A stretch of 64,000 nucleotides of DNA, taken from NCBI RefSeq assembly GCF_900112195.1, contig NZ_FOKR01000002.1:14624-78623 (forward strand), given 5' to 3'. Within the stretch, counting starts at the first letter, position 1. The number at the start of each line of letters is the position of its first letter. Under the pieces are notes generated by a model, which was given only the letters and a program-made list of their open reading frames with translations, had not been told where the DNA came from and searched no databases. This DNA is from Butyrivibrio sp. YAB3001. GTDB taxonomy: Bacteria > Bacillota > Clostridia > Lachnospirales > Lachnospiraceae. Shown in pieces: positions 26,830-30,962 of the stretch. A program made the position numbers and the translations under genes.

Positions 26830-26854
26830 TTTTTTATCTTCTTAAAAGAAAAAC

Positions 26855-26891
26855 ACGAGCCGTTTGCCAGTATTATTGACAAACGGCTCGT
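26855..26891 (-). terminator. Strong hairpin with terminator polarity on the minus strand
   Basis: A 12-bp perfect stem ACGAGCCGTTTG / CAAACGGCTCGT. The T-run (GTTTTTCTTTT) follows only in the minus direction, yet genes on both sides are plus-strand. It may block antisense transcription, or partly stop plus-strand transcription between serA and DUF1015. Confidence 0.6.
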
Positions 26892-26941
26892 ATGCGAGTA
26901 TGAAAGATTATATATAAAATAGAAAACCAGGAGAATTGATA

Positions 26942-28192
26942 ATGGCTGATATAAAACCCTTTAACGCATTTAGACCAAATGGGAAAAAGGCGGAAATTAT
27001 TGCTTCACTTCCCTATGACGTTTTTAACAGACAGGAAGCTTATGAAAAGGTAAGAAAAGAACCTGATTCTTTTCTTGCTATCGACAGGCCAGAAACACAG
27101 TTTGAACCTGATCATGATATGTATGCGCCTGAAGTTTATGATAAGGCGAGACAGATGCTTGATGAAAAGATTCAAAAGGGTGATTTTATCCAGGATGAAA
27201 AGCCCTGCTATTATATTTATGAGCAGACAATGAATGGAAGATGCCAGACAGGAATTGTTGCCTGCGCTTCAATAGATGACTACCTTTCCGGTGTTATCAA
27301 GAAACATGAGAATACCCGTGAAGAAAAAGAAATCGACAGGATAAATCATGTTTATACCTGTGATGCGCAGACTGGACCTATTTTTTTGTGTTATAGAAAG
27401 AATCGTCTTATATCTGATCTTGTTGAAAAGATCAAGGAAGTGGATGAACCGGTATATGATTTTACATCAGAAGACGGAGTAAGAAACCGAATTTTTGTTG
27501 TATCTGATTCGGATGAGATAGATACTATCTGCAGGGTGTTTACCACTATAAAGTCTGTTTATATTGCTGATGGACACCACAGATGCGCATCAGCTGTTAA
27601 AGTGGGACTTAAGAAAAGAAAAGAGCTTGAAGGTAATATAAAGGGAAAACTTAATTCAGATTACTTTTTATCAGTATTATTCCCTGACGAAGAGCTCATG
27701 ATAATGGATTATAACAGAGTGGTAAAAGACTTAAACGGACTTTCCGAGCTTGAATTTGTTGGAAAGATAAAAGAAAAATTTGATATTCAGGAAGAAACAG
27801 AACAGGTCAAACCATCCAAAAAAGGCGAGTATGGAATGTTTTTGGATCGAAAATGGTACAAATTAACAGCAAAGGAAAGCTGTTACAGGGGCGACCCGGT
27901 TGAAGACCTTGATGTCTCTGTGCTGCAAAATGAAGTCCTTTCTAAAATTCTTGGAATAGGGGATCCAAGAACTGACAAGAGAATTGATTTCGTTGGAGGA
28001 ATAAGAGGACTTTCGGAGCTTGAGAAGCGCTGCGAAAAAGACATGAAAGTGGCATTTTCTTTATATCCTACATCAATAAAGGAACTCTTTGATGTTGCAG
28101 ATGCAGGTCTTTTGATGCCACCAAAGTCTACATGGTTTGAACCAAAGTTACTTAGTGGGTTATTTATTCACAAAATTAGTGGTATGATATAG
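26942..28192 (+). CDS. DUF1015-family protein next to serCA
   Basis: A 416-residue cytosolic protein starting MADIKPFNAFRP and containing LPYDVFNRQEAY, the RINHVYTCDAQTGPIFLCY region and IADGHHRCASAV, all characteristic of DUF1015. No signal peptide or membrane segment is seen. The family has no proven activity that I can state; it is often found beside serA/serC. The conserved His pair (ADGHHR) and acidic residues suggest an enzyme. No SerB-type phosphoserine phosphatase is present in the window, so a role in serine synthesis is a reasonable but unproven idea. ATG 26942 follows CAGGAG. Confidence 0.85.
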   Translation: MADIKPFNAFRPNGKKAEIIASLPYDVFNRQEAYEKVRKEPDSFLAIDRPETQFEPDHDMYAPEVYDKARQMLDEKIQKGDFIQDEKPCYYIYEQTMNGRCQTGIVACASIDDYLSGVIKKHENTREEKEIDRINHVYTCDAQTGPIFLCYRKNRLISDLVEKIKEVDEPVYDFTSEDGVRNRIFVVSDSDEIDTICRVFTTIKSVYIADGHHRCASAVKVGLKKRKELEGNIKGKLNSDYFLSVLFPDEELMIMDYNRVVKDLNGLSELEFVGKIKEKFDIQEETEQVKPSKKGEYGMFLDRKWYKLTAKESCYRGDPVEDLDVSVLQNEVLSKILGIGDPRTDKRIDFVGGIRGLSELEKRCEKDMKVAFSLYPTSIKELFDVADAGLLMPPKSTWFEPKLLSGLFIHKISGMI

Positions 28193-28272
28193 ATGTATGC
28201 TGAAAAAAAGTAAAAAAACAAAGAGAAAACTGACATTTTTCTTAGTTTTAATTCAATTCGGAGGGGAATAAG

Positions 28273-30864
28273 GTGAATAATAAACTTTATAAAATGATGA
28301 ATTGGCCTGAAATTGAAGAGATTATCTATTCTGACGGTGATAATCCACATCGGATTCTTGGGGCGCATAAGGTTGGAAGCAGCTATCTCATTCAGGCTTT
28401 TTATCCTGATGCTGAATCTGTTAAGGTCTACATTGAGAATACTAAAAAGGAATACGAGATGGAGCTTGCAGATGAAGCCGGCTTTTATGCGATTATTGTT
28501 CCCTATGTAGAAAAGATAAAGTATAAGTACATTATTAAAGATGCAAAAGGAAATGAAACTACGCTTTATGATCCATATGCATTTGAACCGCTAATGGACA
28601 GGGAGGATTTCATAAAGTTTGGAAGTGGCATTCATTATCATATTTATGAAAAACTTGGCGCTCATCCTATGACCAGAAATGGTGTGGATGGAACAGAATT
28701 TGCAGTATGGGCGCCTTCTGCTGCAAGAGTTAGTGTAATTGGCGATTTTAATGGCTGGGATGGAAGAATCTGTCAGATGCACAGACTTGATCCTATCGGT
28801 GTTTTTGAGATATTTATTCCCGGGGCAAAAGAGCATGATGGCTATCAGTTTGAGATAAAAACCAGGAGTGGAATCGTATTTAAGAGACCTGATCCATTTG
28901 CATTTGCTTCTAAGGGCGAAAATGGAATGATCTCTGTTATCAGGAGAAATGATCAGATTAACTGGACAGATGACAAGTGGCTTTCAAATAGAAGAAAGTT
29001 CAAGCTTGACGAGGATGCTCTTTCAATCTGTGAAATATCTCTTGAGGCTTTTGCGGACAGACATGGTCAGAAGAGCACTATGGAAGAAATTACAGGAGAT
29101 ATTCTTGATTTTGTTCAGAATCATGGCTTCAACACTGTTGAACTCATGCCTGTAATGAAACATTTACCGGGACATTTTTATCACATTTTGGATTTCTTTG
29201 CTCTTGATGAATCAAGCGGTGATATTTGTGAGTTTATGTCTTTTGTCAATGCAATGCACAATGCCGGAATAAGAGTAATCCTTGACTGGGTTCCAACTCT
29301 TTTCCCTAAGTCATCATGCGGTCTTAGTGATTTTGATGGAAGAACACTTTTTGAATATGAGGACCCAAGAGTTGGCATACGTCCTAAGTCTGGTGATCTT
29401 GTCTTTGATTATGGAAGAAAAGAAGTTACAAATTTCCTTATCTCCAATGCTTTGTATTGGATTGAAAACTTCCATATTGATGGATTCAGAACTTCAGATA
29501 TTTCAAGGATCATCTACCTTGATTATGATAGAAACCCTGGTGAGTGGATGCCTAATATCTATGGCGGAAATGAGAATCTGGAGGCACTTGAATTCCTTAG
29601 ACAGTTTAACCAGATAATTCACAAGAATAATCCGGGTGTAATCACAATTACCAAGGAAACAGCCTGCTGGCCAAATCTTACTGATGATATAGAAAATGGC
29701 GGACTTGGATTCGACTTTAAGTGGAACAATGGATGGACAAATGAATTCCTCTCATATATGGAAAATGATCCGCTCTTTAGGGCAGGTCACCATGATGAAC
29801 TTACAGTTAGTCTGATTTATAGTTATACAGAGCGATTTGTGCTTGCGTTTACTCATGAAGATATGGAGAAGGGACTTGAGGGTTTGTATTATCTGATGCC
29901 CGGCGATTCTTCACAGAAGATGGGTAATTTGAGACTTGCTCTTTCATACATGATGGTTCATCCAGGCAGAAAGCATCTTTACATGGAACCGGATGCTCTT
30001 ACCATAGATCAGGCTGTATTTGTTGAGAATCTTCTTAAGAAGCTGAATGGTCTCTACTTTAGTCACGATGCGCTTCATCAGCTAGACAGTTCTGACAGCG
30101 GATTTGAGTGGATCAATAATATGGCATCAGATGACTGCATGGTTTCTTTTGTCAGAAAGAGCATAAACGATGGCGAAACACTTCTTGTTGTTGCCAATAT
30201 GGCTGGCGTAGAAAGAGATTATGAGATAGGTGTTCCTGTTGACGGACGCTATAACGAGATATTTAACAGCGATGATCTTAGCTACGGCGGAACCGGTATT
30301 CTTAATCCTGGCAAAATGGAAACCAGAAGAAAAGATGTTGATGGAAGAAACTATTGCATATCAATAAAGCTTGCGCCGGTTTCTCTTTCAATATTAAGTT
30401 ATACACCTTATACAGAGCAGGAAAAGAAAATCCGTGCAATTAAGGAAGAGGAAGAGATTCTTAAAGAAAACGAGCGCCAGGAGAAGATAAAGGCTCTTAA
30501 GGAAAGACAGAATCTTGAAGAGCAGAAGCTTCTTGCTGAACTTAAAATCAAATATGAAAAAGAACTTGCTGAGCAGGAAAAGGCTATTGAGGAAAAATAT
30601 GCCAAGATTGAGGAAGAGAGAATCTTTAGCATAGTAACAGATGAAGCGATAAAGAGTGCTGAGAGCGACAAAGAAAAATCATCTGATAAAGCAAAGCCTG
30701 AAGCAAAGACAGTAAAGGCTAAAACTACTTCAAAGGCAAAGACTACAAAAGAAAAAACAAGCGCAAAGCCTGCTTCTAAAACAACAAAGAAAACAGGTAC
30801 TGCAAAGACAACAAAGACAACAAAGACAACAAAAACTACTAAAACATCCAAGAAGACTGAATGA
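28273..30864 (+). CDS. GlgB-like protein lacking catalytic residues, with coiled-coil and Lys/Thr-rich tail
   Basis: An 863-residue protein with the full architecture of 1,4-alpha-glucan branching enzyme: N1 domain (about 15-110), CBM48 (about 120-225, containing GDFNGWDGR), GH13 barrel (about 240-610) and C-terminal beta domain (to about 710). Against E. coli GlgB (recalled sequence) the alignment is gap-free around the active site, but D405 (nucleophile) is S408 (FRTSD), E458 (acid/base) is K461 (TKETA), D526 is E529 (THED) and H340 is L343; R403 and H525 are kept. The GNEF and REWN motifs are gone. Residues about 717-790 are a charged coiled coil and 797-863 a Lys/Thr/Ala-rich histone-like tail. 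It probably binds glycogen or another glucan without cleaving it. GTG start follows GGAGGGG. Confidence 0.9.
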   Translation: MNNKLYKMMNWPEIEEIIYSDGDNPHRILGAHKVGSSYLIQAFYPDAESVKVYIENTKKEYEMELADEAGFYAIIVPYVEKIKYKYIIKDAKGNETTLYDPYAFEPLMDREDFIKFGSGIHYHIYEKLGAHPMTRNGVDGTEFAVWAPSAARVSVIGDFNGWDGRICQMHRLDPIGVFEIFIPGAKEHDGYQFEIKTRSGIVFKRPDPFAFASKGENGMISVIRRNDQINWTDDKWLSNRRKFKLDEDALSICEISLEAFADRHGQKSTMEEITGDILDFVQNHGFNTVELMPVMKHLPGHFYHILDFFALDESSGDICEFMSFVNAMHNAGIRVILDWVPTLFPKSSCGLSDFDGRTLFEYEDPRVGIRPKSGDLVFDYGRKEVTNFLISNALYWIENFHIDGFRTSDISRIIYLDYDRNPGEWMPNIYGGNENLEALEFLRQFNQIIHKNNPGVITITKETACWPNLTDDIENGGLGFDFKWNNGWTNEFLSYMENDPLFRAGHHDELTVSLIYSYTERFVLAFTHEDMEKGLEGLYYLMPGDSSQKMGNLRLALSYMMVHPGRKHLYMEPDALTIDQAVFVENLLKKLNGLYFSHDALHQLDSSDSGFEWINNMASDDCMVSFVRKSINDGETLLVVANMAGVERDYEIGVPVDGRYNEIFNSDDLSYGGTGILNPGKMETRRKDVDGRNYCISIKLAPVSLSILSYTPYTEQEKKIRAIKEEEEILKENERQEKIKALKERQNLEEQKLLAELKIKYEKELAEQEKAIEEKYAKIEEERIFSIVTDEAIKSAESDKEKSSDKAKPEAKTVKAKTTSKAKTTKEKTSAKPASKTTKKTGTAKTTKTTKTTKTTKTSKKTE

Positions 30865-30911: not shown

Positions 30912-30962
30912 ATATCTATAGTAAATGTTATGAAAAATTGGCATTTACTATAGATATTTTTT
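30912..30962 (+). terminator. Terminator of the GlgB-like gene
   Basis: A 16-bp perfect stem (ATATCTATAGTAAATG and its complement at 30942-30957) with a 14-nt loop, followed by a T-run to 30962. Confidence 0.93.

Follow-up and report, generated by a model that had tools for sequence, protein, structure and literature searches.

The 1,4-alpha-glucan branching enzyme GlgB, which we take to be GH13 subfamily 9, is the described protein nearest to the one considered here, and its catalytic set in E. coli is presumably formed by D405, E458, D526 and H340. The triad of GH13 enzymes sits on strands 4, 5 and 7 (PMC11046441). In Firmicutes, GlgD is an inactive subunit that modulates GlgC, and the GlgC/GlgD complex is established (PMC9093745). 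In plants, ISA2 is a non-catalytic isoamylase for which a complex with ISA1 has been described and a role through glucan binding proposed (PMC12510319), and in some Chlamydiae a GlgA-GlgB fusion carries an inactive branching domain (PMC11046441). Apart from this fusion, no bacterial GlgB pseudoenzyme came up by title or start of abstract in the open PMC literature (subscription journals and preprints lie outside this scope), and the word "inactive" is absent from the available parts of PMC4236520 and PMC9960391; within the same scope, the recurrent pattern of GlgB pseudoenzymes described below was not found in print.

The locus of interest lies in a window of 64,000 nucleotides, the whole stretch of Butyrivibrio sp. 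YAB3001 DNA that was analysed, whose nearest named loci are those of Butyrivibrio sp. INlla14, B. proteoclasticus and B. hungatei. Its product, pseudo-GlgB, shares with GlgB the four domains, the fold and the glucan-site Trp residues of CBM48 and the C-terminal domain, but is without the nucleophile, the acid/base, the transition-state Asp, His340 and the donor-site stretch, and has in addition a long helix and a basic tail. It resembles GlgD as an inactive paralogue kept beside an active one in the same pathway and phylum (PMC9093745), although GlgD belongs to another protein family and has an established partner, whereas any partner of pseudo-GlgB would be hypothetical. Like ISA2, it is an alpha-glucan GH13 enzyme without catalysis that is kept with an active paralogue; ISA2 differs in being a plant protein of debranching with a described ISA1 complex. 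The chlamydial fusion likewise contains a bacterial GlgB domain described as inactive, but there glgC and glgP are lost and the GlgE route is used (PMC11046441), whereas the Butyrivibrio genome has GlgA, GlgP and GlgD, and the loss in GlgB recurs within the family.

Fold and catalytic site of the Butyrivibrio protein

The gene (positions 28273-30864, on the forward strand, as are all features below unless stated otherwise) encodes 863 amino acids from a GTG start, as defined by the open reading frame, Pfam and NCBIfam profiles and the structure model, and a GGAGG that resembles a ribosome-binding site lies 5' of the start (28260-28264). The protein begins with a GlgB_N (N1) domain (PF22019, residues 11-102, 28303-28578) and a CBM48 (PF02922, residues 127-210, 28651-28902), followed by a GH13 (beta/alpha)8 barrel whose borders, taken from the model and its fold matches, are approximate (about residues 226-600, 28948-30072), and by a C-terminal all-beta domain (PF02806, residues 613-709, 30109-30399). 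The Pfam profiles GlgB_N, CBM_48 and Alpha-amylase_C match strongly above their cut-offs; Alpha-amylase is above its cut-off with a weak 41 bits, as would be expected if the barrel had diverged. The structure model (pLDDT 84.8, pTM 0.80) finds branching enzymes as its top PDB matches, among them 3k1d with a TM score of 0.90 by target length and 9u77_A with a Z score of 43.6 and 2.2 A over 687 residues. A different fold in the barrel was considered and rejected, the first 33 of 50 rows of PDB structure matches being branching enzymes. The full GlgB architecture, N1 and CBM48 included, that the first-pass annotation had read from the letters is thus borne out by Pfam, by the model and by the structure matches.

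Alignment to E. coli K-12 GlgB (taken from NC_000913.3, which also serves for the reference numbering) places L343 (29299-29301) at His340, S408 (29494-29496) at the nucleophile Asp405, K461 (29653-29655) at the acid/base Glu458 and E529 (29857-29859) at the transition-state Asp526, which reproduces all four substitutions claimed earlier. The set of Asp nucleophile, Glu acid/base and transition-state Asp is accordingly replaced in the protein by S408, K461 and E529. E. coli residues 572-589, C-terminal of the FMGxE/D motif and including the donor-site Trp586, are deleted at residue 574 (29992-29994). That pseudo-GlgB would be a branching-enzyme pseudoenzyme, in which the fold of the enzyme is kept and its catalytic residues are lost, is well supported by these alignments. 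It is a case in which the structure of a textbook enzyme can be told apart from its chemistry.

The protein passes two NCBIfam GlgB equivalog cut-offs (NF008967, 605.6 against 577; TIGR01515, 580.5 against 464), scores that do not report on activity, and reaches 626.6 with PRK05402, below the cut-off of 741. The two passed cut-offs, the acidic nature of E529 and the presence of an acidic residue directly after each of the three lost positions could be taken to mean that the protein continues to branch glucan by means of an unusual set of catalytic residues. We regard this as extremely improbable, as the nucleophile, the acid/base, His340 and the donor-site stretch are all lost together, while His340 is retained in 121 of the 121 relatives that keep the triad. 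As it passes both cut-offs, the protein is likely to be named GlgB automatically, and some of the glgB copies counted in genomes from gut and rumen probably encode proteins without branching activity. Several homologues occur in Blautia obeum and Dorea longicatena, which we take to be Lachnospiraceae. The former has three and the latter two (PMC10395257), and the words "inactive" and "catalytically" are absent from that article's main text.

Conservation in Butyrivibrio and catalytic state across the Lachnospiraceae

A match of the pseudo-GlgB type is present in 75 of 79 Butyrivibrio genomes, the other four (G340, G356, G369 and G371) being only 60-72% complete. Across the 74 other copies, the nucleophile position holds Ser in 46, Ala in 11, Pro in 9 and Thr in 8, and Asp in none; the acid/base position holds Lys in 68 and Arg in 5, with a single gap in an oddly aligned copy (L338), and Glu in none; the transition-state position holds Glu in 69, Asp in 4 and Gln in 1; and the position of His340 holds Phe in 62, Tyr in 7, Thr in 3, and Ser and Leu in one each. 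A sequencing or frame error is ruled out by the agreement of these 74 copies. The first-pass annotation had held that orthologues carrying the catalytic Asp/Glu pair in register would undo its reading; none carries the pair within the genus and those of other genera mostly do, which is the pattern predicted by a loss of function.

The NG86 dN/dS of pseudo-GlgB was 0.06-0.07 in the four near pairs for which it could be computed, with dS near saturation, whereas two comparisons with more distant species gave 0.12 and 0.18; catalytic pairs gave 0.06 in the three of seven that were computable, dS being saturated in many of the pairs. By these comparisons pseudo-GlgB is under purifying selection and is kept as an intact gene, so that the earlier argument against a decaying gene stands on the spread through the genus, the low dN/dS and the conserved replacement residues. 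Decay of a redundant glgB copy into a pseudogene could be argued from the second, intact GlgB, which could make this copy redundant, and from the rate of pseudo-GlgB, which evolves about twice as fast as intact GlgB (in the comparison of the window strain with B. hungatei DSM 14810, dN is 0.17 for pseudo-GlgB and 0.08 for intact GlgB). We nevertheless consider decay very unlikely in view of the same observations and of the confident fold.

The replacements are themselves conserved, and it can be asked whether the old active site has been rebuilt into a new pocket, for another ligand, as a sensor or for other chemistry, through D409, K461-E462 and H528-E529. Lys or Arg occupies the acid/base position in 73 of the 74 copies and D409 is present in 73 of 74. 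In addition, 34 switch columns are fixed, at a level of at least 90% in each group, for one residue in the 121 catalytic relatives and for another in 34 Butyrivibrio sequences (the group, out of the 75, used for this comparison and for the glucan sites), and 20 of the 34 lie, by hand count, in or beside conserved motifs around the old active site. However, internal salt bridges closing the barrel would leave the same pattern, the nucleophile position drifts among Ser, Ala, Pro and Thr, other lineages have quite different residues at the site, and no ligand is known; a rebuilt pocket therefore appears unlikely to us.

For the family, 299 Lachnospiraceae genomes, nearly one per genus, yielded 148 N1-type loci, namely the best-scoring matches to pseudo-GlgB, with lower-scoring matches left out and one locus (L181) dropped as having no matching open reading frame. 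The triad is kept in 121 of the 148 and lost in 27, with many different replacements; as the loci were chosen as best matches to a pseudoenzyme, 27 of 148 is not a prevalence. The state was called from three aligned residues, and two loci whose motifs look degenerate (L237 and L248) were called active, while another (L024) is missing part of motif IV, so that losses may be undercounted. Outside the family, in the same order and class, 44 of 44 best-scoring loci have D/E/D/H and extend 3-29 residues beyond the beta domain. Rumen and gut Lachnospiraceae also carry GlgB-like proteins in a much more degenerate state (L116-L125, L127-L131, L133, L135 and L139), with 33-39% identity and with even barrel motifs I and IV gone.

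Each of the 27 genomes holding an inactive copy also holds a second GlgB with D/E/D/H; in G010 this copy is divided between two reading frames, and in G137 it is partial. Among the genomes with a catalytic N1 copy, 20 of 119 have one GlgB match only, as counted by hand with at most three candidates scored per genome. Compared with 27 of 27, the remaining 99 of 119 give a modest association (Fisher p = 0.025), in which the relatedness of the genomes is left out of account.

Trees built with the motif columns excluded indicate that the state has changed many times. A FastTree of 169 rows requires at least 11 changes of catalytic state, 10 of them forced by supported branches, and a short-search IQ-TREE of 71 hand-chosen rows at least 16, of which 9 are forced; both trees have long branches, which lowers the trust due to supported branches, and the counts do not separate loss from gain. 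On this sequence evidence, the catalytic state appears to have changed repeatedly among the relatives, at least nine to ten times. The intermingling of catalytic with inactive rows on both trees speaks against one single loss for all inactive copies. In an earlier tree of 70 rows the Butyrivibrio group was placed with other inactive groups, and its loss may hence be shared with rumen relatives.

Retained glucan sites and a proposed role beside intact GlgB

The genome of the window strain encodes a separate GlgB, the match to which begins after N1, with the triad and His340. A second, catalytic GlgB, as the first-pass annotation had proposed to look for, is therefore present as judged by its residues. 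Intact Butyrivibrio GlgBs were read in 16 genomes (the strain's own, G207 and 14 more) of the 78 with such a match. At one locus (L002 3518-4942, reverse strand), the gene beside the intact GlgB encodes 474 amino acids, the first half of which contains a low-complexity stretch that is acidic and Lys-rich, and a Pfam search with it gave no match. The strain's genome further contains one GlgA above cut-off, two phosphorylases and two glgD above cut-off (G000 C29:645491-647733 and C32:29378-31724), each glgD lying beside a weaker match that may be glgC. A search of the open PMC literature for Butyrivibrio with "reserve polysaccharide" and glycogen returned no paper.

Twelve glucan sites have been mapped on E. 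coli GlgB, and mutation at sites I, IV, VI and VII lowers its activity (PMC10254366). According to the alignment and the site table of that article, W162 of pseudo-GlgB (28756-28758) corresponds to W159 of site IV, and by the alignment W613 (30109-30111) corresponds to W628 of site VI. Of the 34 Butyrivibrio rows, 32 have W162 and all 34 have W613; of the 38 other inactive rows, W162 is present in 36 and W613 in all 38. Genus-wide, the other copies have W162 in 67 of 74, the remaining 7 having it replaced, and W613 in 73 of 74. Trp586 and Phe294, on the other hand, are deleted in all 34 Butyrivibrio rows. In terms of the mapped sites, Butyrivibrio has lost sites I and XII by deletion and mostly carries Lys or Arg at site VII. 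Sites II, III, V, IX and X of the E. coli enzyme are unconserved in pseudo-GlgBs, and likewise in the catalytic relatives. With the Trp of sites IV and VI kept and the sites of the donor path lost, what survives would be a grip on glucan away from the donor path.

Since every genome checked also has an active paralogue, this putative grip suggests that pseudo-GlgB serves glycogen synthesis as a glucan-binding partner or scaffold without catalysis of its own, similar to GlgD or ISA2. This is the best explanation we can offer for the pseudoenzyme, and we lean slightly towards it; that it binds glucan, has a partner and influences glycogen, and that the basic tail has any part in this, is what we infer. 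The course of events could have been as follows: (i) the starting point would be an N1-type GlgB of the Lachnospiraceae, from a group that already bore helical or Lys-rich C-terminal extensions; (ii) in an ancestor of Butyrivibrio that had a separate, intact GlgB as well, this copy would have given up branching chemistry and retained a structural role; (iii) CBM48 and the C-terminal beta domain would allow pseudo-GlgB to bind glycogen; and (iv) through N1 and the long helix, it may pair with, or position, the intact GlgB or another glycogen enzyme, with a mode of action like that of GlgD with GlgC or of ISA2 with ISA1.

A broader proposal, which we hold tentatively and would place a little short of an even chance, is that N1-type GlgB in the Lachnospiraceae has a second, separately selected non-catalytic job, as a particle scaffold or as a partner of the second GlgB, and that the chemistry was lost at least nine to ten times beside an intact GlgB while the glucan-binding frame was kept, in a recurrent bacterial counterpart of ISA2. 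The nine or ten losses are changes of state on the trees that are read here as losses. Repeated catalytic loss with retention of the glucan-site Trp residues hints that binding, and not branching alone, may be a way in which GlgB shapes glycogen, as work on plant ISA1 and ISA2 proposes for starch (PMC12510319). Because relatives with and without catalysis exist, such a non-catalytic role is directly testable.

C-terminal extension and gene neighbourhood

Beyond the beta domain, the model contains a long charged helix (residues 715-790, 30415-30642), followed by a disordered, fast-evolving tail rich in Lys, Thr and Ala (residues 791-863, 30643-30861), with pLDDT below 50 over residues 783-863. 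The 70-residue coiled coil described at first pass is thus present as a long charged segment, better worded as a single, coiled-coil-like helix, and the Lys/Thr tail, described as 65 residues long, is disordered and Lys/Thr-rich as claimed, with about 73 residues following the helix. The likeness to histone H1 holds as regards composition and disorder: the last 40 residues are 93% Lys, Ala, Thr, Ser and Pro, the next highest value among the listed open reading frames of the window being 42%. A bridge to DNA, RNA or the membrane, as suggested in the first-pass annotation, would be a conjecture from this composition. The intact Butyrivibrio GlgB also ends in a short Lys-rich tail, and the GlgA, phosphorylase and GlgD reading frames of the genome have no Lys-rich end.

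The catalytic N1-type GlgBs of other Lachnospiraceae, which differ from pseudo-GlgB in keeping D/E/D/H, are alike in architecture and carry a C-terminal extension of at least 25 amino acids in 91 of 121 cases, compared with 33 of 46 inactive family members; with a threshold of at least 20% Lys over the last 30 residues, 81 of the 91 and 29 of the 33 extensions are Lys-rich. As the extension is common in catalytic relatives, neither helix nor tail is linked to the loss of catalysis, and the view of the first-pass annotation that a pseudoenzyme had been fused to a special tail does not hold. Gain of the tail by the pseudoenzyme is excluded for the same reason, and, from the sequences compared, a tailed GlgB that lost catalysis appears to fit better than a pseudoenzyme fused to a tail. 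A long extension may also occur beyond the Lachnospiraceae, since one GlgB of the order outside the family (G400 C1:2705855-2708362) lies in an open frame of 861 and has a match that reaches residue 846 of the query.

The gene adjoins a DUF1015 gene (26942-28192; PF06245, E 5.5e-113), not glycogen genes, which counts against the proposed role in glycogen synthesis. The DUF1015 gene ends 80 bases upstream of pseudo-glgB, and the two may form a single two-gene unit. In two overlapping sets of Butyrivibrio loci the same neighbour is found at 27 of 28 and at 42 of 44; in the family, within the flanks read, it accompanies 41 of the 121 catalytic loci and 11 of the 27 inactive ones. No paper on the function of DUF1015 was found by title and abstract in the open PMC literature.

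This neighbourhood and the extension bear on a further possibility, that the selected job resides in N1, the helix and the basic tail, which might for example touch a polyanion or the DUF1015 protein, and is largely unrelated to glycogen. Within the genus, the helix (residues 711-785) has a mean conservation of 0.84, equal to that of the globular domains (0.78-0.85), the basic tail is present in most members and DUF1015 is almost always adjacent. The glucan Trp residues of CBM48 and the C-terminal domain are, however, mostly retained, and the tail, whose conservation in the genus is low, unlike that of the helix, changes fast, is missing in some inactive members (e.g., L021 and L135) and is present in catalytic relatives; we would give this possibility a small share of our belief, and prefer the glucan-binding partner or scaffold.

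The pairing of DUF1015 with N1-type GlgB is common in part of the Lachnospiraceae, and for the far more degenerate proteins mentioned above DUF1015 lies directly upstream in 10 of the 11 placed on the 169-row FastTree. In the window, the DUF1015 gene sits between pseudo-glgB and genes that, named by eye, are like serC and serA. Pattern matching placed a terminator-like hairpin of 17 pairs just upstream of DUF1015 (26853-26893, reverse strand) and, 3' of pseudo-glgB, a terminator-like stem of 19 pairs, 3 of them G-C, with a T run (30912-30957), followed by a tRNA-Thr; four such sites were observed in the region against 2.6 expected.
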